34,755 nt of DNA from Methanothermococcus sp. SCGC AD-155-C09. GTDB lineage: Archaea > AGJL01 > Methanococci > Methanococcales > Methanococcaceae. A model generated the notes under the pieces. That model was not told the origin of the DNA. It saw only the letters and a program-made list of their open reading frames with translations, and searched no databases. The position numbers and the translations under genes are program-made. Positions 16,254-30,398 of the stretch are shown here, one piece after another (positions within the stretch are counted from its first letter, which is position 1; each line of letters starts with the position of its first letter). Location: contig JAHEQB010000099.1 in the NCBI GenBank assembly GCA_019561555.1, positions 1 to 34,755 of the forward strand, written 5' to 3'.

Positions 16254-17279
16254 TCATTTCATAAATAATCTTTTCATACTTCTTTCAATAGCGCCCTCTG
16301 CTGCTTTTTCTCCAATAATGGTTCTAAGTTCATTTACAAGGGCCTGAGAGGCTACAATTGTTGTTGGGTTTACCTTAGAATTTTTAGATTTTTCAACTAT
16401 TTTATCATCCAAATTACTTAAAATATCCAGGGCTACATCCAATCCCTTTTGATCCTCCAACAGACGCATGGATGAGGCACTCTTTATAACCAATTCCACA
16501 TTAAGGGCCTTTAAAAGGCCATAAACACCTGAAGTCTCCACAATTGAAGACATTGTTTGAAGTGTCATGGCTATCTGCTGCTCTACCATTTTCTTAGGTG
16601 CTCCTATAACTTCCCTACTAACAGTGTAATACTCTAAAACACCTGCTAATGCCACAGCAGTTGTAAGAACTCCCATATCTGAAACAGTAGGTACTACATC
16701 AATAGGAACTACATAGGCCTTCTTATTAACACTCTCTGCTAATTCAACACATTTTTTCATCTGTTCCTCAGTAATGTATTCCCTTCCATCAAGGGCAGTA
16801 CCTCCTATAACATAGTGATTATGTTGAGGAGTGCCAGGCACTGCAGCAGGCTGCATTGAGGAAATACCCACATCCTTTCTCTCCCTAAGTTCATATTTAA
16901 GACTTATATAAAGGACACTAGGGGAGGCAGTACAGGTGGTTAAAATAACCCCATCCTTTGGAAGATATGTAATTATACTATTAGCAACGCTTGTAGTGAC
17001 ACATCCAAAGGGTGTAAAAAGTATATGCAACTCTCCATGCTTTGCAGCCTCCATATCATTGTTAGTAATCTTAACTCCTGAACTTTCAACTTTTTCCCAC
17101 ATTTCATCAGTTAATTTATTTCTATCTGGTTCTGAAAGTATAACATCATGTCCTGCCTCAGCAAATTCCATTGCCATTCTACTTCCACCGTAGGGTGGCT
17201 CCCCTCCAAAAAGTTCTGGAAGTTTAAGTTTGTTAACATATAAGTTCTGATTTCCTGCTCCGTAGACTGAAACCTTCAT
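16254..17279 (-). CDS. Hmd paralogue (HmdII/HmdIII type), array copy 1
   Basis: 341 residues. Homologous to [Fe]-hydrogenase Hmd but of the paralogue class: it starts KVSVYGAGNQNLY, a Rossmann motif in which the catalytic His14 of true Hmd is replaced, then GGEPPYGGSRMAMEFA. The iron-ligand cysteine is kept (ILTTCTASP, C116), but the histidine of the following SMHPAAVPGT motif is Gln (SSMQPAAV). Such paralogues bind or may sense the FeGP cofactor, and one was reported to interact with a tRNA synthetase; none is a proven hydrogenase. ATG with GGTGA 4 nt upstream and a TATA box at about -55. First of four tandem minus-strand copies and, with copy 3, of the A type in its centre (PIDVVPTVSDMGVL). 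Confidence 0.9.
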   Translation of the reverse strand: MKVSVYGAGNQNLYVNKLKLPELFGGEPPYGGSRMAMEFAEAGHDVILSEPDRNKLTDEMWEKVESSGVKITNNDMEAAKHGELHILFTPFGCVTTSVANSIITYLPKDGVILTTCTASPSVLYISLKYELRERKDVGISSMQPAAVPGTPQHNHYVIGGTALDGREYITEEQMKKCVELAESVNKKAYVVPIDVVPTVSDMGVLTTAVALAGVLEYYTVSREVIGAPKKMVEQQIAMTLQTMSSIVETSGVYGLLKALNVELVIKSASSMRLLEDQKGLDVALDILSNLDDKIVEKSKNSKVNPTTIVASQALVNELRTIIGEKAAEGAIERSMKRLFMK

Positions 17280-17326
17280 AAATTCACCAATGGTATCTGA
17301 TGATGGCTTACAGTATTTTATGATAG

Positions 17327-17338
17327 TTATATATAAAT
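17327..17338 (-). promoter_or_regulatory. TATA box of Hmd-paralogue copy 1
   Basis: Minus strand AATTTATATATAACT, about 50-60 bp before the ATG, predicting a leader of about 25-30 nt. The equivalent site is not obvious in copy 2. Confidence 0.5.
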
Positions 17339-17347
17339 TGTATACTT

Positions 17348-17388
17348 CCCTTAGTATTTAATAATTACTATACGGAACTATCAATAGC
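17348..17388 (-). promoter_or_regulatory. Conserved upstream block, Hmd copy 1
   Basis: Contains AGTTCCGTATAGTAATTATT followed by AAATACTAAGGG (minus strand). It is nearly identical to the block before copy 2 and recognisable before copy 3. It is conserved better than the DNA between it and the start, so it may be an operator or activator site, or simply a remnant of recent tandem duplication. Confidence 0.45.
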
Positions 17389-17530
17389 ATCTATCTATTT
17401 TTCTTTTATAGATTCTGAAAACTTTTAATTAAAAAATTTACTTTTATTTATTTTAATTAAAAAATAATAAAAAAAACTAAAAAAATAACTTTAAAAAAAT
17501 TTAAGAATTTATTAATTATGTATTATAATT

Positions 17531-18559
17531 CTACTCATTCATAAAGAGTTTTCTCATACTTCTTTTAATGGCTCCATCTGCTGCTCTATCCCCCATAATG
17601 ACTCTAAGTTCATTTACAAGTCTCTGAGGGGCTACAGGTGTTGTTGGGTTTACCTTGGCATTCTTAACCCTTTCCATTAATTCCTCGTCAATATTCTTTA
17701 ATCTCTCCAATGCTGCTTTTGAGGTTTTCTGATCCTCCGTAAGACATATAAATGAGGTACTCTTTCTAATCAATTCCACATCAAGGGCCTTTAAGAGGCC
17801 AGAAATTCCTGAAGTCTCCACAAGGGAGGCTAATGTTTGGAGTGCCATAAGTATATCCAATTCTATTACCTCTTCAGGGATATCCATAACCTTTCTACCA
17901 ATGGTGTAATAGTCCAATATACCTGCCAACGCCACGGCAGTTACTAAAGAGGATCCCATATTTCCAGTGGGGCATATTGCACCTATGGGAACTATATAAG
18001 TCTTCTTATTAACACTCTCTGCAAGTTGGATACACTTTTTCAATTGCTCCTCAGTAATGTAGTCCTTTCCCTCAAGAGAGGTGCCCCCTATAATATAATA
18101 AGTATGTTGAGGGGTACCGGGAATTGCAGTAGGATGTACTGAAGAGATACCAACATCACTTCTCTCCTTAAATTTATATTTGAGATAGTGATATGGGACA
18201 AGTGGGCAGATATTATAGGTAGTTAGAATTATGGCATCCTTTGGAAGATGTGGAAGTATATTCTTAATAATCTCTAGAATACGATCTCTGGGTGTAAAGA
18301 ATATATGGACCTCTCCGTGCTTAGCAGCCTCTATGTCATCGTTGGTAACTTTAACCCCAGATTCTTCAACTTTTTTCCACATTTCATCAGTTAATGCATT
18401 TCTATCTGGTTCTGAAAGTATAACATCATGTCCTGCCTGGGCAAATTCCATTGCCACCCTACTTCCCCCGTAGGGAGGTTCTCCTCCAAAAAGTTCTGGT
18501 GCTTTAATTTTGTTAATATATAGGTTCTGATTCCCTGCTCCGTAGACTGAAACCTTCAT
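17531..18559 (-). CDS. Hmd paralogue, array copy 2, iron-ligand Cys replaced by Tyr
   Basis: 342 residues, B type in the centre (HTYYIIGGTSLEG, PIGAICPTGNMGSS), shared with copy 4. The N-terminus MKVSVYGAGNQNLY matches copy 1. The iron-binding cysteine expected in ILTTC is tyrosine here (ILTTYNICP, Y115; codon TAT where copies 3 and 4 have TGT), although a second Cys three residues on is present as in copy 4. If it still binds the FeGP cofactor, it cannot do so by the usual Cys ligand. The ORF is intact, with ATG and GGTGA at 4 nt. Its C-terminal part (TSKAALERLKNIDEEL) is the most divergent of the four. Confidence 0.88.
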   Translation of the reverse strand: MKVSVYGAGNQNLYINKIKAPELFGGEPPYGGSRVAMEFAQAGHDVILSEPDRNALTDEMWKKVEESGVKVTNDDIEAAKHGEVHIFFTPRDRILEIIKNILPHLPKDAIILTTYNICPLVPYHYLKYKFKERSDVGISSVHPTAIPGTPQHTYYIIGGTSLEGKDYITEEQLKKCIQLAESVNKKTYIVPIGAICPTGNMGSSLVTAVALAGILDYYTIGRKVMDIPEEVIELDILMALQTLASLVETSGISGLLKALDVELIRKSTSFICLTEDQKTSKAALERLKNIDEELMERVKNAKVNPTTPVAPQRLVNELRVIMGDRAADGAIKRSMRKLFMNE

Positions 18560-18626
18560 AAATTCACCAATAACACTTGATAATGACTTTTCAGTATTTT
18601 AGATGGTTATTTACTATACGTAATAA

Positions 18627-18667
18627 CCCTTAGTATTTAATGATTACTATACAGAACTATCAATAGC
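18627..18667 (-). promoter_or_regulatory. Conserved upstream block, Hmd copy 2
   Basis: Minus strand AGTTCTGTATAGTAATCATT then AAATACTAAGGG, differing from the block before copy 1 at only a few positions over about 40 bp. Confidence 0.45.
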
Positions 18668-18810
18668 CCCTATCTATTTTTTTTATAGATTTAGAAAAAC
18701 TTAATTAAAAAATATATTATTTTAATTTAATTAAAAATTAATAAAAAAATAAAATAATAATTTTAATTGTTTAAATAATTTGTTAATTGTAGTATAATTT
18801 TTATAGGTCG

Positions 18811-19836
18811 CTAATGGCTCATAAAGAGTTTTTTCATACTTCTTTTAATGGCACCATCTGCTGCTTTACCTCCAATAATAGTTCTAAGTTCATTTATAAG
18901 TGACTGGGAGGCCACAAGTGTTGTTGGATTTACCTTAGCATTTTTAGATTTTTCCAATATTCCATTATTTAGATTACTTAAAATATCCAAGGCCGCCTTT
19001 AATTCTTTCTGCTCCTCCATTAGATACATGGAGGAGGCACTATTCACTAGTAGTTCCATATCAATGGTTTTTAAAAGGCCATCTACATCTGAAGTTTCCA
19101 CAATAGAGGCCAATGTTTGAAGTGATGCAACTATCTGTTGCTTTATCATTTTTTTAGGTGCATTTATAACCTCCCTACCAACAGTGTAATAGTCTAAGAT
19201 ACCTGCCAATGCCACAGCAGTTATTAGAACTCCCATATCTGAAATAGCAGGTACTATATCAATAGGAACTACATAGGCCTTCTTATTAACACTCTCGGCT
19301 AATTCAATACATTTTTTCATCTGCTCCTTAGTAATGTACTCCTTTCCATCAAGGGCAGCGCCTCCTATAACATAGTGATTATGTTGAAGGGTACCTGGAA
19401 CTGTAGCTGGGTGCATAGATGAGATACCTATATCACCTCTCTTCTTAAGTTCAGATCTAAGGGACTCATATAAAAGTATGGGAAAAACAGTGCAAGTGGT
19501 TAGAATTACAGCATCCTTTGGTAAATATGGAAGTATGTTCTTGGCTATACTTTTAGTATGGCCATAGGGTGTAAAAAGTATATGAACTTCCCCATGCTTA
19601 GCAGATTCTATATCATCGTTAATAACTTTAACCCCAGATTCTTCAACCTTCCCCCACATTTCATCAGTTAGTTTATTTTTATCTGGTTCTGCAAGTATAA
19701 CATCATGTCCTGCCTGGGCAAACTCCATTGCCATTCTACTTCCGCCGTAGGGTGGCTCCCCTCCATAGAGTTCTGGTACTTTAAGTTTATTAATATACAA
19801 ATCTTGATTCCCTGCTCCGTAGACTGAAACTTTTAT
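18811..19836 (-). CDS. Hmd paralogue, array copy 3, apparent ATA start
   Basis: A-type centre (HNHYVIGGAALDG, PIDIVPAISDMGVL) like copy 1. C115 (ILTTCTVFP) and the SMHPATVPG histidine are both kept. The ORF track begins at a TTG (19800), but the conserved N-terminus IKVSVYGAGNQDLY lies upstream in frame. It begins at ATA (19836-19834), exactly where copies 1 and 2 have ATG and 4 nt after GGTGA. Between that ATA and the in-frame TAG at 19857-19855 there is no ATG, GTG or TTG; an ATT lies immediately before it. With ATA the protein is 341 residues, the same as copy 1. Starting at TTG would remove the GxGxxQ nucleotide-fold motif. Either an ATA (or ATT) start is used or the gene is newly crippled. 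Confidence 0.82.
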   Translation of the reverse strand: MKVSVYGAGNQDLYINKLKVPELYGGEPPYGGSRMAMEFAQAGHDVILAEPDKNKLTDEMWGKVEESGVKVINDDIESAKHGEVHILFTPYGHTKSIAKNILPYLPKDAVILTTCTVFPILLYESLRSELKKRGDIGISSMHPATVPGTLQHNHYVIGGAALDGKEYITKEQMKKCIELAESVNKKAYVVPIDIVPAISDMGVLITAVALAGILDYYTVGREVINAPKKMIKQQIVASLQTLASIVETSDVDGLLKTIDMELLVNSASSMYLMEEQKELKAALDILSNLNNGILEKSKNAKVNPTTLVASQSLINELRTIIGGKAADGAIKRSMKKLFMSH

Positions 19837-19896
19837 AATTTCACCCCTGAATATCTAATGGTTTTATATTGTTCAAATTATATGTAATTATATACT

Positions 19897-19937
19897 CCTT
19901 AAGGTATTTAATATTTACTATGATAGAACTATTAACG
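19897..19937 (-). promoter_or_regulatory. Conserved upstream block, Hmd copy 3
   Basis: A diverged version of the block before copies 1 and 2 (minus strand AGTTCTATCATAGTAAATAT then TAAATACCTTAAGG). Copy 4 has no clear equivalent. Confidence 0.35.
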
Positions 19938-20084
19938 GTAACCATATAAAAATATATTTATTTTATAAATTCCAAAAACCTTAATTAAAAAAAATATTAC
20001 TTTAATTATAATCATAAAAATAATAACTATTAAAAAATTATTAATCTAAAAAAATAAAAAATAATTAAATAAAAATAGATAATT

Positions 20085-20144
20085 TAATATTTAAAAAATA
20101 CCTAAAAAAAAGTAAATGTATAAAGAGGAGTCTTGTCATTACTA
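20085..20144 (+). repeat. Truncated R1 element abutting Hmd copy 4
   Basis: ATATTTAAAAAATACCTAAA, then AAGTAAATGTATAAAG and TCATTACTATTACC resemble the first half of R1 copy 2 (6205-6280). The hairpin core is missing and the match ends at the stop of Hmd copy 4, as if truncated by a rearrangement there. This piece points into the gene end, unlike full R1 copies. Confidence 0.35.
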
Positions 20145-21170
20145 TTACCCCATAAAGAGTTTTTTTATACTTCTTTTAATGGCACCCTCTGCAGCCTCAC
20201 CACCAATAATATTTCTAAGTTCATTTACAAGGGCCTGGGAGGCTACAAGTGTTGTTGGATTTACCTTGGCATTTTTAGATTTTTCTATTAATTTATCATT
20301 TAGATTACTTAAAATATCCAAGGCTGCCTTTAATTCTTTCTGCTCCTCCTTTAGATACATAAAGGAGGCACTCTTTATAATTAATTCCACATCAAGGGCC
20401 TTTAAAAGGCCAGGAATTCCTGAGGTCTCTACAATAGAGGCCAATGTTTGAAGTGCCATGACTACTTCCCGCTCAATTACATTTTCAGGGGATTTCATAA
20501 CTTCAGTACCAATGGTGTAATAGTCCAATATACCTGCCAACGCCACGGCAGTTACTAAAGAGGATCCCTTATTTCCAGTGGGGCATATTGCACCTATGGG
20601 AACTACATGGGCCTTTTTATTAACACTCTCTGCCAGTTGGATACATTTTTTCAATTGTTCCTTAGTAATATATTCCCTTCCCTCAAGGGAGGTGCCCCCT
20701 ATTATGTAGTAGGTATGTTGAGGAGTACCTGGGTATACACCTGGGTGCATTGAGGAAATACCAATATCACTTCTTTCCTTAAATTTATATTTGAGATGGT
20801 GATAGGGAACAACTGGGCAGATATTACATGTTGTTAGAATTATGGCATCCTTTGGAAGATGGGAAAGTATATTTTTAACAACCTCTAGGGTATAGTCAGT
20901 GGGAGTATATAGTATATGCAACTCTCCATGCTTTGCAGCCTCTATGTCATTGTTGGTGATTTTTACCCCGGATTCTTCAACCTTCTTCCACATCTCCTCA
21001 GTTAATATATTTCTATGGGGTTCTGAAAGTATTACATCATGTCCTGCCTGGGCAAACTCCATAGCCATTCTACTTCCGCCGTAGGGTGGTTCTCCACCGT
21101 AGAGTTCTGGTACTTTAAGTTTATTAATATAAAAATCTTGATTTCCTGCTCCATATATTGAAATTTTTAT
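20145..21170 (-). CDS. Hmd paralogue, array copy 4, apparent ATA start
   Basis: B-type centre (HTYYIIGGTSLEG, PIGAICPTGNKGSS) like copy 2, but with the iron-ligand cysteine (ILTTCNICP, C115) and the SMHPG histidine kept. The C-terminal third (EEQKELKAALDILSNLN, KSKNAKVNPTTLVASQ) is nearly that of copy 3, so the gene is a mosaic. The ORF track starts at ATG 21068, removing 34 conserved residues. The conserved reading (IKISIYGAGNQDFYINKLKVPELYGGEPP) runs upstream in frame to ATA at 21170-21168, 4 nt after GGTGA. An in-frame TAA at 21182-21180 leaves no ATG, GTG or TTG as an alternative. Length with ATA is 341 residues, as in copy 1. Confidence 0.82.
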   Translation of the reverse strand: MKISIYGAGNQDFYINKLKVPELYGGEPPYGGSRMAMEFAQAGHDVILSEPHRNILTEEMWKKVEESGVKITNNDIEAAKHGELHILYTPTDYTLEVVKNILSHLPKDAIILTTCNICPVVPYHHLKYKFKERSDIGISSMHPGVYPGTPQHTYYIIGGTSLEGREYITKEQLKKCIQLAESVNKKAHVVPIGAICPTGNKGSSLVTAVALAGILDYYTIGTEVMKSPENVIEREVVMALQTLASIVETSGIPGLLKALDVELIIKSASFMYLKEEQKELKAALDILSNLNDKLIEKSKNAKVNPTTLVASQALVNELRNIIGGEAAEGAIKRSIKKLFMG

Positions 21171-22935: not shown

Positions 22936-24177
22936 TTATTTATTATTTTTATCTCTATTAAAATCCTCCTCTATTAAAACATCACTTAATTCTTTGGATA
23001 ATATATAATATACATTATTTCCAGAGCGCTCCTTATATATGTAGCCCATTTCATAAATATCTGATAGATGGGTTCCAATGGTGCCTGGAGAATAATTTAA
23101 AGATTTGGCAAGTTCAGTTACTGTTGATCTCCCATTAAAACTTGCCAATGCCCTAACTATCTTAGATTGGGCAGGAGTTAGATGGTTTAATATCTGATGG
23201 CCTATGCTAATACCTAATTTTTTCATGGCCATTTTTACTATGTTTTCATCTATTTCTGTCAGTCCCTTTTTTAATCCTATGGATATGGCCTCAGAACAGG
23301 TCATAATAATCTTTCTTGGAATACCATCACACTCCTCCACAATAACATCAACTGCTCCTTCAGTAAAGGGCTCATAATTTTTAGCCTTGGATATTTGGGC
23401 ATCCTTTAATCTTCTCAATATTAAATCATAGGATTCTTCCTTGGATAGGGGAGGCATGTTTATTATCTTTGGTAATCTATCCCTCATGGCAGGAGATACC
23501 TTAGTTAGATTTTCCATAAGTGTGGGAGAGCCTGCAAAAAATGTTAGAATACCATCCTCATATAAAAAGGAATGGAAAAATTGGAGTAATTCAAGACATT
23601 TCTTTTTTGCAAATTGGTCAGCCTCATCTATAAGTATTATACATAGTCTATTATCTCCCTTTACAATATTCAATAAATAATCCAAATCCCTTTCAATTCT
23701 CTCCCTGGGATAATGCACTGGGGTTTTATCTGGATGGGCATCTAACCTCCTATATATCTCAATTATTTTTTGGGAATGTTCCACATATTCAGTAGATAAT
23801 GTGCCCTCCATAGTAAATAAATTATCCTTTATAATTCCATACATAAGTTGTATTAGAAATTGTCTGGGGGTAATTTGAGAGGCCTCCAATTCAACAGTCC
23901 AATGGTTCTGCCTCTTTGCTGCATAGTATATAACATTTAAAAGGGAACTCTTCCCAATTCCCTTTGTTCCAACAATGGCAGCATTGGCCACACTACCATA
24001 CTGGGCTGCTCCAAGTATATCGGCTATCTCCATTAATTCTGTGGTTCTACCAACAAAAAATTTTGTATTGCCCCTTATTGGTTTTTCAGAGAAGGGATTC
24101 GTCTTTAACTTTAGCCTATTCATGGCTTTTTTTGTTATGGATGATGCATTTTGTATAAATTCTATAGGGTCCAACAT
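22936..24177 (-). CDS. Divergent Orc1/Cdc6-like AAA+ initiator
   Basis: 413 residues from the preferred start. The AAA+ core has a Walker A GTKGIGKSSLL (about residues 70-80), Walker B CIILIDEADQF (about 179-189), sensor-1-like TFFAGSP (about 212-218) and MRDRLPKI (arginine finger region). A winged helix follows at about 325-405 (LTPAQSKIVRALASFNGRSTVTELAKSL). NPFSEKPIRGNTKFFVGRTTELMEI resembles the start of Orc1/Cdc6. It is far from the standard archaeal family, which fits the divergent initiators described for Methanococcales. Start: the track uses 24195, but the ATG at 24177 has GTGAT upstream while the first ATG has no site. Origin-like motifs lie upstream. Confidence 0.75.
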   Translation of the reverse strand: MLDPIEFIQNASSITKKAMNRLKLKTNPFSEKPIRGNTKFFVGRTTELMEIADILGAAQYGSVANAAIVGTKGIGKSSLLNVIYYAAKRQNHWTVELEASQITPRQFLIQLMYGIIKDNLFTMEGTLSTEYVEHSQKIIEIYRRLDAHPDKTPVHYPRERIERDLDYLLNIVKGDNRLCIILIDEADQFAKKKCLELLQFFHSFLYEDGILTFFAGSPTLMENLTKVSPAMRDRLPKIINMPPLSKEESYDLILRRLKDAQISKAKNYEPFTEGAVDVIVEECDGIPRKIIMTCSEAISIGLKKGLTEIDENIVKMAMKKLGISIGHQILNHLTPAQSKIVRALASFNGRSTVTELAKSLNYSPGTIGTHLSDIYEMGYIYKERSGNNVYYILSKELSDVLIEEDFNRDKNNK

Positions 24178-24250
24178 AATATCACAGTAGTCCATTATTA
24201 AAAACTTATTTTTATACTTTCTAATTTTTAATATATTTATATATTTTTTA

Positions 24251-24276
24251 TTCGAATAATTCGAAAACTCGAAAGT
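24251..24276 (+). other. Origin-like motif, site 1 (triple CGAA)
   Basis: TTCGAATAATTCGAAAACTC followed by GAAAGT: three TCGAA units at 8-9 bp spacing, containing TTCGAAAACTCGAAA (24260-24274). It lies about 75 bp upstream of the Orc1/Cdc6-like gene in a 675-bp AT-rich gap (24178-24852), so it could serve the origin, the promoter, or both. The rest of the gap is A/T-rich, with a weak CTCCTAAATACC (24425) that may be a decayed R1 core. Confidence 0.6.
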
Positions 24277-24852
24277 CCTACTATAATATGATTTTTAAAT
24301 ATATTTTTATTTATATATGTCAATAATTAAATAAACAACCTTATATATAATAACCGTGAATACAATATTAAAATAAAATTAAAATGTGAATATAATAATA
24401 AATAAAAAAATAATATAATCTATGGCTCCTAAATACCTATAAAATTAACTTTAATAAAATTTTAAAAAATATATAAACTATCACAGTAATAATAAAGTTT
24501 TCTTTAATTCAATTTTTAGTATATATAGTAAAATCAAAATCGTGAATCAATAATATTATATTATATCTGCTATGAATATATTAAATTATACCTATAAAAA
24601 ATTATAATTTATTTTATATATTCTTATAATTACCTATCATACCCCTAAATATAAAAATAATTTATTAAAACCAATAAAATTAATTAATCAAAAATAAAAA
24701 AGTATATATATTTGATACTTCCATTAAGATAATAACCTAAAAATAATCCTTAAATGAATCCAAGGATAAAACATATACTAAAAAACATTAGAATTGATAA
24801 AATAATAAAATAAAATATAAATAAGAAATAAATAAAAAATTAAGGTGAAATA

Positions 24853-25371
24853 ATGGAGAACATAATAAATGAAAGTATATCTACCCCTATAAGAAAATTA
24901 ATTTTACATTATGTGTTAATTCGTGGCACAACATATCCCAAACAAATAACCGAAAACCTGAAAATCTCTAAGGGGCTTCCTTCTCAATTTTTAAGGCTTT
25001 GCACTGCTTTAAACCTAACAAAGCGAGAGAGAAATGGCCATAAAGTAATGTACTCCATGACTAAAAAAGGAATTGCAATTTTAAAGAGATTATGCCCTGA
25101 AATATTTGACCTTAGTTTTTCGAGTCTTTTCGAAAGTTTATCGAAAAAGAAATTTGATACTAAGTATTACCCAGTGAATAAAATAGGTTTTGAAATAAAG
25201 AAATACGTGGATAACTTTGGTGGAATCACATTTAAATTCTATGATGATAGTGGAGAAGAAATATCCTCAGTCTTTAGGTCTGCTGTAGGAACATGGTGGT
25301 GTGTAGCCTGTCAATCCAATGATTGTAGGCATATTAATTATCTGAAAAAATATTACCTTAATCCCAAATAG
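24853..25371 (+). CDS. Winged-helix protein with C-terminal SWIM-like zinc motif
   Basis: 172 residues. The N-terminal half is a winged-helix domain (RKLILHYVLIRGTTYPKQITENLKISKG..LPSQFLRLCTALNLTKRERNGHKVMYSMTKKG). A middle segment (KIGFEIKKYVDNFGGITFKFYDD) is followed by GTWWCVACQSNDCRHINYLKKYY, a CxxC-x4-CxH pattern close to the SWIM zinc motif. DNA binding is likely. GGTGA precedes the ATG. It is divergent from the Orc1/Cdc6-like gene across the AT-rich gap. An origin-like motif lies inside its coding region and another right after its stop, so it may bind these itself or be part of initiation; both are inference. I do not recognise a named family. Confidence 0.65.
   Translation: MENIINESISTPIRKLILHYVLIRGTTYPKQITENLKISKGLPSQFLRLCTALNLTKRERNGHKVMYSMTKKGIAILKRLCPEIFDLSFSSLFESLSKKKFDTKYYPVNKIGFEIKKYVDNFGGITFKFYDDSGEEISSVFRSAVGTWWCVACQSNDCRHINYLKKYYLNPK
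25117..25148 (-). other. Origin-like motif variant inside coding region
   Basis: Plus strand TTTCGAGTCTTTTCGAAAG then TTTATCGAAAAAG. The reverse complement, CTTTCGAAAAGACTCGAAAA, matches the motif with a two-base insertion in the spacer. Confidence 0.4.
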
Positions 25372-25376
25372 TAATA

Positions 25377-25391
25377 TTTCGGGTTTTCGGG
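25377..25391 (-). other. Origin-like motif, site 2
   Basis: Minus strand CCCGAAAACCCGAAA, starting 6 bp after the stop of the winged-helix gene, followed by a GC-richer GGTGTGCACTGTATAAGG patch. The rest of 25372-25894 is AT-rich and gene-free. Confidence 0.55.
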
Positions 25392-25733
25392 TGTGCACTG
25401 TATAAGGGGAGGGGAAAGTATATAAAAAATTTAATATTCCAAAATATTTTTGAGAAATAATTCCTTGGAAAATGGTTTATTTTTTGATATATCATAGTAT
25501 ATAAGTTTATATTATTAATACACTGATAACTGCATTTAATTTATGTATATTTTAATTATTTATTTTGTATTTTTTAAATAGTAGAAAAATATACATTATT
25601 TTAATAAAATACTTATTTATATTATTTATTATACATATTATGTGCAAAAATATAATATCAATATAATTTCTTAGGAATAATTTTTTTTATTGTACTTAAG
25701 GGATACTTCTTTTTTCTGTACATATATATCACA

Positions 25734-25748
25734 CTCGAAAACTCGAAA
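25734..25748 (+). other. Origin-like motif, site 3
   Basis: CTCGAAAACTCGAAA, intergenic, in a very AT-rich context. Confidence 0.6.
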
Positions 25749-25894
25749 CACTTTTAAGAAATCATTTAAATACCTTTTTTCTTAAAATATTAACCTGAAA
25801 TATTATATTAAAAACAGTGTTGTGCCACAACTATGAACAAAACATAAATGGTAATAAAATAGATTATTTTTTTAATATTCGGCAAAAAACAATA

Positions 25895-26956
25895 CTATCC
25901 GAAAACTCGAAAGTTATCTATAATGAGGTTGTTGTAATATATCCCATACACACTGGCATGGAAACTCCTATAGGGCAGGGTTTTAAAAATATCTAATAAA
26001 TCACTATTATCAGTATTTATTTTAAATATTATATTTTTTCCAATTCTTCTCTTTTTTAATATTTTTTTATCTGCCAATTCACTTAGATAGGCATATATTG
26101 TGGGCAATTTTAAATTTATATGTTTTTCAATATCATTTATGGTAAATTTTTTTAATTTCCAGGCTATATTTATTATTTTTTTATACTTATTTGGGAGTAT
26201 TAAGGGAATTACCTTTGACCAGGGTATTTTTAATTCCCTTAGGTTCCTTACCTCTCTTTTAATGCGGGGGAGAATTATATCCAGTATGTTAAGATTTCCC
26301 TGGGATATTTTTAATAGATATTTTGCTACCTTTGTGGATAGAATACATCCCTTTTTTCTTGCGTAGTATTTTATTATTGCAATATTGTTTATTTTCGAGT
26401 TTTCGAATATCCTTTTGGCATATTCTGTGGATTCAATAGGACATCTTAATACTATTGTAATGCCATTTTTATTTAACCTATCTACAAATTTTTTAAACCC
26501 ATTAATATGATTCCACTTATTTATGTTGTGTAAATCAAGTACAAGAATTGGTTTCAATACCTTTAATAAAGTTATTGTTTTATTAATGGCATTTTTAAAG
26601 TTCCACTGATAAATATCATTAAAAAAGTCCCCTATAAATCTATACCATGCCTTTTTTGCTCTATGGTAGTTTTTATTAATATTTTTAAAATAGACTTTGT
26701 CTAAATACTTAAATATATTTAGGTTTAGATCTTTATCCCTCTCTTTAAATAATACCATTTTGTCCTTTATTGTATATAATAACCTACTAATGGTTTTTTT
26801 TAATGAGGGTGTTGCCAATATCCTTAAAATAGGTATGCCATCCACTAAATTAATCTCCCCACTTTCATTTAACTCAAGAGTATTTTCTCTATCTGTTGGC
26901 ATAATCCATAAATCCCCTGTTAGAAAGTCCTTAGCATTTTTGGCAATTATATCCAT
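25895..26956 (-). CDS. Winged-helix protein with ATPase-like core lacking a P-loop (possible degenerate initiator)
   Basis: 353 lysine-rich residues that I do not recognise by name. The middle has a Walker-B-like strand PILVLDLHNINKW (about 136-148) and a following strand ITIVLRCPIESTEYAKRIF, as in AAA+ cores. A small helical stretch and a winged helix follow (about 270-320, KKIINIAWKLKKFTINDIEKHINL..PTIYAYLSELADKKILKKRRIG). No GxxGxGK[ST] is present at the N-terminus. The order of parts parallels the Orc1/Cdc6-like protein upstream, so it may be a degenerate paralogue or a regulator of it. Two origin-like motifs overlap this gene, one at its 3' end (encoding the tail NFRVFG) and one internal. 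A repeat R1 copy precedes it. Confidence 0.6.
   Translation of the reverse strand: MDIIAKNAKDFLTGDLWIMPTDRENTLELNESGEINLVDGIPILRILATPSLKKTISRLLYTIKDKMVLFKERDKDLNLNIFKYLDKVYFKNINKNYHRAKKAWYRFIGDFFNDIYQWNFKNAINKTITLLKVLKPILVLDLHNINKWNHINGFKKFVDRLNKNGITIVLRCPIESTEYAKRIFENSKINNIAIIKYYARKKGCILSTKVAKYLLKISQGNLNILDIILPRIKREVRNLRELKIPWSKVIPLILPNKYKKIINIAWKLKKFTINDIEKHINLKLPTIYAYLSELADKKILKKRRIGKNIIFKINTDNSDLLDIFKTLPYRSFHASVYGIYYNNLIIDNFRVFG
25898..25912 (+). other. Origin-like motif, site 4
   Basis: TCCGAAAACTCGAAA, overlapping the last codons of the gene at 25895-26956. Confidence 0.55.
26393..26407 (-). other. Origin-like motif, site 5
   Basis: Minus strand TTCGAAAACTCGAAA, identical to site 1 but inside the coding region of the gene at 25895-26956. 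Confidence 0.5.
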
Positions 26957-27036
26957 AATTCTTCCCTTTATGTAAATTTTTATTTTGGATTATTTCTTTA
27001 AAAATAAAATAATAAAATTTATATTAATTATAGTCA

Positions 27037-27250
27037 AGGACATAATAATTTAAACTTATTATGGGTATAGCATCTATACTTAAAGGGTTTCCCCTAAACA
27101 TCCAGTGCTTAGGGGTGTAGGAAGGAGGATATCGGCAGAACTTTTGCTTTTTTAGTATTTATTTTCTTTTATATTTTCTTTATGTCTTTAAGTAAATATT
27201 GATATTGCTTTTTTTTAAATACTTAATTTTTCCCTATATCTTAGGATTTA
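27037..27250 (-). repeat. R1 leader-like repeat, copy 6 (long form)
   Basis: Minus strand: TCCTAAGATATAGGGAAAAA at the start, AAATACTAAAAAAG, the core ACACCCCTAAGCACTGGATG (about 27108-27120), GGGGAAACCCTTTAAGTAT, and the end AATTATTATGTCCTTGACTA. It ends about 80 bp before the start of the P-loop-less winged-helix gene and points to it. Copy 7 is nearly the same sequence about 1 kb away. Confidence 0.65.
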
Positions 27251-28013: not shown

Positions 28014-28065
28014 ATTTATTTTTTTATTTAGTTTTATCTCCTTGGTATATATTTTTTTAAAAATT

Positions 28066-28258
28066 GTAGTCAAGGACATAATAATTTAAACTTATTATGG
28101 ATATAGCATCCATACTTAAAGGGTTTCCTCCACACATCCAGTGCTTAGGGGTGTAGAGGGGAGGAAGGTAAGTTATGGGATTTCTACTTTTTAAGTATTT
28201 ACTTTCTTTTATTTCTTTAAATATTTTATTTTTCCATATATCTTAGGAATTATATTAT
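28066..28258 (-). repeat. R1 leader-like repeat, copy 7 (long form)
   Basis: Minus strand: TTCCTAAGATATATGGAAAA, AAATACTTAAAAAGTAGAAA, the core ACACCCCTAAGCACTGGATG (around 28138-28150; ACATC can pair with GGTGT), GAGGAAACCCTTTAAGTATG, and the end AATTATTATGTCCTTGACTA. Over the last ~110 bp it differs from copy 6 at only about ten positions, showing recent duplication or strong conservation. Confidence 0.65.
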
Positions 28259-28352: not shown

Positions 28353-30398
28353 TTAAATTAACCTATATTTTCCATTTCTTGGTTCGTCTATATCCCCTCT
28401 TTTAAGTAATTTCTTAATGATATTTTCTACCCTTTCTTCATCCATCCCCTTCTTTTTAGCCTCTTCAACAATATCCATAAATAAAACTAAATTATCTCCA
28501 TTCTTTTTTTCAGATAGATTTTTTATAATATTGTAAATCTCCTTCATATCATCTCGATCTTTACTGGATTCCCCTACTATTTTCCCAACATCTATCATCC
28601 CTGTTTCAGGATCATAGGCAATTTCCCTTAAGGATTCCATTATTATATTAATGGCCTCCTGGGCATCTTCAGCCTCTACAATATCCTTTAATTTTACCTT
28701 AGCATGGGCCTCAGCAAGTCTAATTGCAGCCTCAAGTTGTCTTGCAGTTACCTGTATGGAACTCTTTCTCATATTGACATAGTACTCCACTAAAATATCC
28801 TCGGCCTCCCTGGATATAGTTGGTTTCTTAGTTTTACTATATATTATGTATTTTGTAATGAAATCTTCGTCTATTTCCACTCCATATATGTTGGTTTTTT
28901 TAGTCTTTTTATTTTCCTTATCCCTTTTAAGGTAATTCCTATGGATATCAATAATATGCCTTGCTATCTCTGTATCTTTGGCCCTATTCACTTCATCCTT
29001 TATGGGAAAGATTATATCAAACCTACTTAACATGGGAGCAGGTATATTTATCTGTTCAGGTATGGATTCATTTGGATCAAATTTACCCCATTTGGGATTA
29101 CATGCAGCCAATATTGCACACTCTGCTGGAAGTTTAGTGTTTATTCCTCCCTTATTGATATGTATAGTCTGACTCTCCATGGCCTCCAATACATAACTTT
29201 GTAAATCCTTATTTACAGTTAATTCATCAATACAGGCTGTGCCCTTATTGGCTTTAACCAATAAACCTGGTTTTATTACCCAAGTATCATCCCCAATCTC
29301 AGTCCTTTCCCTTACAACAGCGGCTGTTAATCCTACCCCTGATGCAGTAGTTACAGAGCCATACATGTTTCCTGGAAGTTCTGCAATTTTTCTTAGCATA
29401 ACACTCTTTCCTATACCTGGATCAGTAATTAAAAGAATATGACTATCTGCCCTTTTATTTCCCTTTTTAACTCCCTTTATCTGTTGTAAAAATATGGCCT
29501 TTTTTATGGTATTATATCCCTTTATTTCCTTTATAAGTTCATTGGCCAATATATTCAATACATCAGGATGTTTAGATACCTTTTCAATATTTTTAATATC
29601 CTCTTCAGTAAGTTCCATCTCCAACTTATCCTCTATTACTTGACAATCTATTCCCCTTATATATATGTCATATATGGGCAATTTTTTATTACTACGGTAT
29701 TTAATTGGCACCCCTGTTATTCTTACCCTTCCACAAAATACCCCTGGTGAATTTTCCAAGAATACTGTTATGTATTTTGGAGGCTCTTCAGGATCATCCA
29801 TTAGATCCAATGGTTGCTGGATTTTTAACTCTTGAAAGTCAATATATTCTGATATATTTTCGTTAATTTCCATTGAACCATTACAATCTTCTTTACCACA
29901 GGGCATTGATTCTGGAATGGATTCATATGGATTATCAATAGTCTTTTTTATGGAGTATCCACATTTATTACATACAAATACTGCTTTCTTTAATATGGAC
30001 TTTATTTTAGTGGCCAATACTACTATGCCTTCAAATTCAATGAGTTTTCCTAAGGTATTACTTTTAATATCCTTAATTGTTAAAGTTCTGTTTCCATATC
30101 TTTTAAATATATGGGGCAAATTTTTAATGGTGATAATACATTTACTATCTTCACTCTTTAATATTCTGTAGGCTTTGTTGTAGGCCTCATTTAATATTTC
30201 CAATCCATCGTAGGGATTATTATGGAGATATTCTATAAATTCCACTAATCCATAGTTATATAGTTTTTCTAAATCAATGGCTATTCTTTCCCTTTCAGAG
30301 ATAATATCCTCACTGTGGAAATTCCTAATATAATTTGCAATAGGGTTTATAAAATCTTCTCTATCTTTCTTTTTTATTTCTATTGATTCCTCATCCAT
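28353..30398 (-). CDS. mcm: MCM replicative helicase
   Basis: 681 residues. An N-terminal domain with a zinc site (C143, C146, C167, C172) is followed by the OB-fold segment. The AAA+ domain has Walker A ITDPGIGKS (325-333; most MCMs have GDPG), Walker B ACIDELTVN (388-396; most have IDEFDKM), LEAMESQTIHINKGGI (the pre-sensor hairpin region), sensor-1 LAACNPKWGKFD and the arginine-finger PMLSRFDIIF. The tail folds into a winged helix (from about 610). MCM unwinds DNA at the fork. Methanococcales carry several MCM paralogues and I cannot say which this is; the slightly altered Walker A and B sequences suggest one of the variable copies. It lies 1.4 kb downstream, in window terms, of the initiator-like genes. 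Confidence 0.9.
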   Translation of the reverse strand: MDEESIEIKKKDREDFINPIANYIRNFHSEDIISERERIAIDLEKLYNYGLVEFIEYLHNNPYDGLEILNEAYNKAYRILKSEDSKCIITIKNLPHIFKRYGNRTLTIKDIKSNTLGKLIEFEGIVVLATKIKSILKKAVFVCNKCGYSIKKTIDNPYESIPESMPCGKEDCNGSMEINENISEYIDFQELKIQQPLDLMDDPEEPPKYITVFLENSPGVFCGRVRITGVPIKYRSNKKLPIYDIYIRGIDCQVIEDKLEMELTEEDIKNIEKVSKHPDVLNILANELIKEIKGYNTIKKAIFLQQIKGVKKGNKRADSHILLITDPGIGKSVMLRKIAELPGNMYGSVTTASGVGLTAAVVRERTEIGDDTWVIKPGLLVKANKGTACIDELTVNKDLQSYVLEAMESQTIHINKGGINTKLPAECAILAACNPKWGKFDPNESIPEQINIPAPMLSRFDIIFPIKDEVNRAKDTEIARHIIDIHRNYLKRDKENKKTKKTNIYGVEIDEDFITKYIIYSKTKKPTISREAEDILVEYYVNMRKSSIQVTARQLEAAIRLAEAHAKVKLKDIVEAEDAQEAINIIMESLREIAYDPETGMIDVGKIVGESSKDRDDMKEIYNIIKNLSEKKNGDNLVLFMDIVEEAKKKGMDEERVENIIKKLLKRGDIDEPRNGKYRLI

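Follow-up and report, generated by a model that had tools for sequence, protein, structure and literature searches.

Gene X of Methanothermococcus sp. SCGC AD-155-C09 (genome 1.73 Mb) may encode a nucleotide-binding-deficient initiator subunit, an Orc1/Cdc6-like AAA+/winged-helix protein specified at the chromosomal origin of the Methanococcales; we give this reading, which is built on sequence comparisons and predicted structures, an even chance of being right. X and the origin-box-like elements beside it likely mark the origin of this order. The window that we analysed, 34,755 nt of contig JAHEQB010000099.1, also carries a divergent Orc1/Cdc6-like gene (orc1, product ORC), a winged-helix gene with a zinc-type motif (HTH) and the gene for the MCM helicase (mcm), and its features are listed in Table 1. 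Reviews describe replication initiation in the Methanococcales as an intriguing unknown, Orc1 having long gone unrecognised, and the origin prediction for M. maripaludis as inconclusive (PMC3984812, PMC5333045).

Table 1. Positions of the genes, protein segments and motif sites in the window
Feature	Position	Strand	Basis or remark
ORC, divergent Orc1/Cdc6-like AAA+ protein, intact Walker A/B	22936-24195	minus	profiles, alignment
Site D, upstream of the Orc1/Cdc6-like gene	24261-24274	minus	most relatives carry a variant ahead of orc1
Second repeat type, copy TTGATTCACGAT... in the HTH–orc1 gap	24534-24550	minus	similar to the Methanococcaceae motif of Ori-Finder 2 (PMC4164010)
HTH, winged-helix protein, invariant C-x2-C-x4-C-x-H zinc-type motif	24853-25371	plus	convergent with X
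Site C, inverted partner of B	25377-25406	plus	core TTTCGGGTTTTCGG at 25377-25390, extension degenerate
AT-rich spacer between B and C, candidate unwinding region	25391-25734		18% GC
Site B, 30-bp origin-box-like element	25719-25748	minus	core 25735-25748; motif matches, flank alignment
Gene X, degenerate AAA+-like and winged-helix protein, 353 aa	25895-26956	minus	ORF, 25 orthologues, alignment, models, Foldseek
Site A, TTTCGAGTTTTCGG, over the 3′ end of X	25899-25912	minus	near the X stop in most orthologues
X winged helix, residues 256-313	26018-26191	minus	many weak profile matches, model; in register with the ORC winged helix
X helical lid-like segment, residues 191-246	26219-26386	minus	three helices in model; Hda_lid below cut-off
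Internal motif copy, TTTCGAGTTTTCGA, codons FENSK	26393-26406	plus	common to the window and G009 only
X sensor-1-like strand GITIVLRCP	26438-26464	minus	alignment; model strand E167-173
X Walker-B-like strand VLDLHN, residues 139-144	26525-26542	minus	alignment; model strand E137-142
X degenerate P-loop position ATPSLKKT, residues 48-55	26792-26815	minus	three glycines lost, Lys-Thr kept
MCM helicase	28353-30398	minus	upstream of X; here 1.4 kb of repeat-containing DNA between

Searching 61 genomes, we found 25 orthologues of X beyond the window, distributed over both Methanococcales families and absent outside the order, which brings the X-bearing genomes to 26. Gene order is fixed: folE2, orc1, HTH and then X, convergent to HTH, with mcm directly upstream of X and followed by cobB in the Methanococcaceae; at one locus (L033), mcm overlaps X by 4 bp. 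While orc1 adjoins the X–HTH locus in all X-bearing genomes except one (G025, discussed below), synteny identifies X, HTH and the array in the intergenic region between them as an order-wide locus in all Methanococcales with X. HTH is present at the locus in 26/26 X-bearing genomes and has no Pfam or NCBIfam family above cut-off. In one MAG (G034; L053, 9386-10066), an in-frame TAG cuts the X ORF after 226 aa, which makes it a pseudogene or an assembly error.

Several observations concern the surrounding DNA. Two copies of an element of ~112 nt (27018-27129 and 28054-28165, 89% identical) lie in the X–mcm interval, on either side of 1 kb of AT-rich DNA. The element has at least 42 matches in the window's genome (40 of 329 first-look candidates were scored), with weaker relatives in G002, G007, G005 and G001 only, and it has no Rfam match, nor does Rfam match anywhere else in the window. 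Four tandem paralogues of one family at 16254-21068, 67–77% identical to the fourth gene, are putative Hmd-type dehydrogenases.

The motif TTTCGRRTTTTCGR occurs five times in the whole 1.73-Mb genome, always inside 24261-26406, and its reversed control pattern occurs 0 times; thus the two copies inside X, to which the original prediction had drawn attention, are real and beyond chance. Over the 3′ end of X and the X/HTH intergenic region of 26 loci, we counted 64 matches (≥13/14), against 0.075 expected from dinucleotide shuffles. Where site A is clear, its distance from site B is constant (163–168 bp). Its reading frame differs between genera (FRVFG versus IFEFS), indicating that the DNA is conserved and not the peptide. 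Site A is, judging from these alignments, an intragenic copy constrained as DNA and part of the order-wide array.

Sites B and C usually lie 357–374 bp apart, C being inverted relative to B, and flank alignment extended both to a 30-bp box, TTTCGRRTTTTCGANNTGCATGTATGTATA; in many species there is also an inner pair of inverted GATTATCACAA copies. Of the 61 genomes, 15 contain the strict pattern of this box, 27 times in total and exclusively at the X–HTH locus; the window's own B and C have degenerate extensions and do not match it. Across the loci measured, the spacer between B and C has a GC fraction of 0.12–0.25 and a length of 334–363 bp, with one exception of 615 bp. The core also shifts in concert at A, B and C, reading GAATTTT in G026, G028 and G030. 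Exact motif copies in argD (Methanocaldococcus) and in a membrane protein gene (Methanococcus) are probably coincidences of coding sequence and were left out of account, since in G028 argD keeps GAGTTTT while A, B and C of that genome carry GAATTTT. Other exact copies lie between the gene for the large PolD subunit and an apparent rRNA in G011 and G003 (L066, position 3069; L061, position 5045); these are apparently noncoding and possibly functional.

The X–HTH locus has the layout of an archaeal oriC (an AT-rich interval, inverted repeated boxes and an adjacent orc1/cdc6), with a box that departs from the canonical archaeal consensus, TCCA..GAAA (PMC4164010). Besides the TTTCGRRTTTTCGR boxes there is another array, of a different type, in the HTH–orc1 gap (24196-24852 and its equivalents in relatives), where phased direct TTGATTCACGAT-like repeats are found in most relatives, at spacings of ~30 and 156–187 bp; its presence means that the origin could be centred in that gap. 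It is there, next to orc1 (MJ0774), that Zhang and Zhang in 2004 reportedly located the Z-curve origin of M. jannaschii. The previously predicted origin is on the other side of the HTH gene, in the interval neighbouring the X/HTH array. The Ori-Finder 2/DoriC motif for Methanococcaceae origins, TT[TA][GT]ATTCA[TC][GA]AT[AT]T[AT]T[AT] (PMC4164010), points to the same neighbourhood and has its copies in the HTH–orc1 gap, but it is unrelated to TTTCGRRTTTTCGR; several loci, and G025 throughout, have no exact copy of it.

The single genome with a displaced orc1 separates these elements. In the 1.33-Mb chromosome of G025, orc1 and folE2 are found 193 kb away from X and HTH. Sites A, B and C remain with X and HTH as their sole copies in the chromosome, while site D is missing upstream of the moved orc1. 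A TTGATTCACGAT-like repeat lies beside HTH and not beside orc1, although its two copies count for little because the repeat is common in G025 at two mismatches. Since both arrays have stayed with X and HTH while orc1 has moved, the origin unit seems, as far as sequence can tell, to consist of X, array, HTH and array, with orc1 usually, not always, beside it. GC skew over the whole G025 chromosome gave no clear extremum at the X–HTH locus.

X, HTH and ORC are jointly missing from one sub-clade within the genus to which the window belongs (G001, G002, G004–G008 and G010), which includes a closed, 99% complete genome of 1.5 Mb (G005), and from the fragmented G035. Searching five X-less genomes for ORC at E≤10 returned nothing except one fragment (E 0.08). 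Genomes with this joint absence include incomplete MAGs, and the absence of X together with orc1 is supportive only, because it may reflect a single evolutionary event. The same sub-clade is also without the boxes and without a close mcm orthologue. G003 differs, in that X probably falls in an assembly gap, given that ORC lies at the start of a contig and mcm at the end of one.

We then considered the X protein. As originally predicted, it has no P-loop, the Walker A pattern GxxGxGK[ST] being missing from X and from 24/24 aligned orthologues, and it contains a hydrophobic strand with an Asp, a sensor-like strand after it and a winged helix. In place of the P-loop, 24/24 orthologues carry ATP[SN]LKKT or a near variant, in contrast to the invariant GTKGIGKS of the neighbouring ORC, and both X models have a strand-loop-helix at this place, from which we infer that ATPSLKKT is positionally equivalent to the P-loop. 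The Walker B pattern hhhhDE is likewise incomplete: the strand reads VLDLHN or VFDVHD, with Asp in most orthologues and Glu absent. Pfam Hda_lid gave weak, below-cut-off matches in 7/24 orthologues, and the winged helix resembles those of ArsR/TrmB/BlaI regulators in profile and fold matches. A weak match to Pfam RXYLT1_C was dismissed as chance. The curated Orc1/Cdc6 profile TIGR02928 has no match to X, and sequence searches of solved structures gave nothing useful for X or ORC.

Structural models were generated for full-length X (AlphaFold2, 4-sequence alignment, pLDDT 70) and for the core of another X orthologue (4-sequence alignment, pLDDT 73); a protein scan of genome contigs with X gave no match and an alignment-based scan gave three loci, which limited the structure alignments. 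With the full-length model, Foldseek ranked archaeal Orc1 structures first and second (2v1u, E 4e-4; 2qby, E 8e-4; TM 0.20) and a Drosophila ORC structure third. With the core-only model, all 50 matches listed are AAA+/STAND proteins (best E 8e-3, TM up to 0.38), and among them yeast ORC chain C, which we take to be Orc3, comes first, Hda (3bos) second and RFC next, with DnaA present too. TM-scores are low across these searches (0.2–0.38), and in the models no second sheet strand follows the first helix ahead of the Walker-B-like strand; the order of strand, helix, Walker-B-like strand, sensor-like strand and lid is retained. X probably belongs to the AAA+ superfamily on the strength of these models, and the unrelated fold that would have spoken against the original prediction was not obtained. 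When viral models were searched, the plasmid replication protein of a haloarchaeal phage ranked first for X. X itself was found in no viral contig, plasmid or phage, so that its recent capture as a plasmid initiator is unsupported.

ORC is, by its sequence profiles, a divergent Orc1/Cdc6: it aligns with canonical Orc1/Cdc6 over 290 columns (hhalign probability 97.7, E 1.6e-12), and in several Methanocaldococcus genomes no protein matches TIGR02928 better. Profile comparison of X with this neighbour aligned the winged helix (probability 31, or 53 with the lid region) and nothing in the core, and hhalign of X against canonical Orc1 likewise aligned the winged helix only (probability 40). The suggestion that X is a degenerate paralogue of the Orc1/Cdc6-like protein is upheld in part. 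An AAA+-like core, a winged helix and linkage to orc1 and origin-like DNA agree with it; paralogy with the neighbour is unproven, because the X core has no profile similarity to the neighbour or to canonical Orc1, and we rejected it at the sequence level.

Comparison with archaeal Orc1/Cdc6 (A. pernix Orc1, 2v1u; S. solfataricus Orc1-1/Orc1-3, 2qby) reveals a shared predicted arrangement of AAA+-like core, lid and C-terminal winged helix, and a gene position beside origin-like inverted boxes and mcm. Unlike these proteins, X has no Walker A, an incomplete Walker B, no TIGR02928 match and a fast-evolving core of unrecognisable sequence. X also recalls eukaryotic Orc2/Orc3, which have degenerate ATPase sites: it pairs an AAA+-like region with a winged helix, has no ATP site and has an ATP-binding Orc1 for a neighbour, and its first core match is yeast ORC chain C. 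This is a likeness in predicted architecture, from which neither membership of a complex nor common descent follows. WhiP of Sulfolobus oriC3 is similarly a winged-helix protein at an archaeal origin (a predicted one for X), but it is Cdt1-like (PMC5333045), whereas X carries a single winged helix after an AAA+-like core.

The claim that the motif at 26393 is constrained as protein and DNA at once fared less well. The window and G009 carry the same rare codons, TTC GAA AAC TCG AAA (TTC, AAC and TCG being the rare ones), and the motif is missing from G011, which is closer to the window than G009, and from all other relatives. Given the FENSK peptide and codon usage, the motif has a probability of 1.4e-4 in the window and 1.8e-3 in G009, rough values based on few genes, while retention of the 5 synonymous codons between the two by chance is expected at ~9%. 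Because other relatives are without the motif and chance sharing with G009 is of this order, the claim is weak; comparison of the window with G009, G011 and other relatives did not establish synonymous constraint. The copy may be a lineage-specific extra site, to judge from its distribution.

In the mechanism that we propose, the boxes would be initiator-binding sites and the AT-rich interval between B and C the place of DNA opening. The winged helix of X might bind origin DNA, or X might dock on bound Orc1; the neighbouring Orc1/Cdc6-like protein would provide the ATP switch, and X would act as a structural subunit without ATP, in a role comparable to that of Orc2/Orc3 in eukaryotic ORC, and could help to place MCM. 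The rate of change in X (tree length 6.1 versus 1.55 for orc1, ~4x faster) counts against a tightly constrained role and is unusual for an essential initiator.

Other readings of X were weighed against this one. According to the original prediction, X could be a brake. In this reading an ATP-less relative would occupy the same boxes, or become part of Orc1 assemblies, and keep initiation from recurring, much as Hda or sequestering factors do. The weak Hda_lid matches, the second rank of Hda in the core fold search, the missing ATP site and the motif sites inside the X gene itself suit this idea. Hda, an AAA+ member acting on the initiator DnaA, however, keeps its Walker A, works with the sliding clamp and is itself a nucleotide-binding AAA+ protein, whereas X has no Walker A. 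The retention of X across the order, its linkage to mcm and its absence together with orc1 suit a partner at least equally well, and because of them we favour a co-initiator and regard a brake as distinctly unlikely. A different objection is that X might not be AAA+ at all but a winged helix attached to some unrelated helical domain, as the core without profile similarity, the low TM-scores and the missing second strand would allow; the uniformly AAA+/STAND core matches among those listed, Orc1 as first match of the full-length model and the retained order of elements make this unlikely.

The boxes could also be explained without an initiator. If X were a transcription regulator of the mcm/orc1 locus, they would be its operators and the origin would lie in the HTH–orc1 gap, as earlier predicted, a view in keeping with the ArsR/TrmB/BlaI-like winged helix, the position of site D in the orc1 promoter region, the second repeat array and the M. 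jannaschii origin reportedly beside orc1. We consider it rather unlikely: the genes flanking B and C converge, and a promoter is not expected there; the two boxes are inverted and enclose AT-rich DNA at a fixed spacing; and in G025 sites A–C have remained with X and HTH while orc1 is elsewhere without a D site. A further reading, in which X or HTH would bind B and C as a centromere-like partition site or a fork barrier close to the origin, and replication would not start there, is very improbable. Such a site would agree with the convergent intergenic location and with weak matches of the full-length model to the winged-helix centromere-binding proteins TubR (3m8e) and AspA (5k5q), but archaeal origins usually have this layout of inverted boxes on either side of an AT-rich interval, and orc1 and mcm adjoin.

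The co-initiator reading may extend to a mixed archaeal ORC, in which ATP-binding Orc1 and ATP-less X, possibly with HTH, would assemble on a previously unrecognised type of box that brackets the true origin; we advance this tentatively, as a possible, if doubtful, step beyond the evidence for X. If true, X in such a complex would parallel, in archaea, the inactive ORC subunits of eukaryotes, and an archaeal initiator subunit dedicated to working without ATP would bear on the origin of those subunits. For the Methanococcales, the locus offers named parts and exact sites that are testable in genetically tractable Methanococcus.
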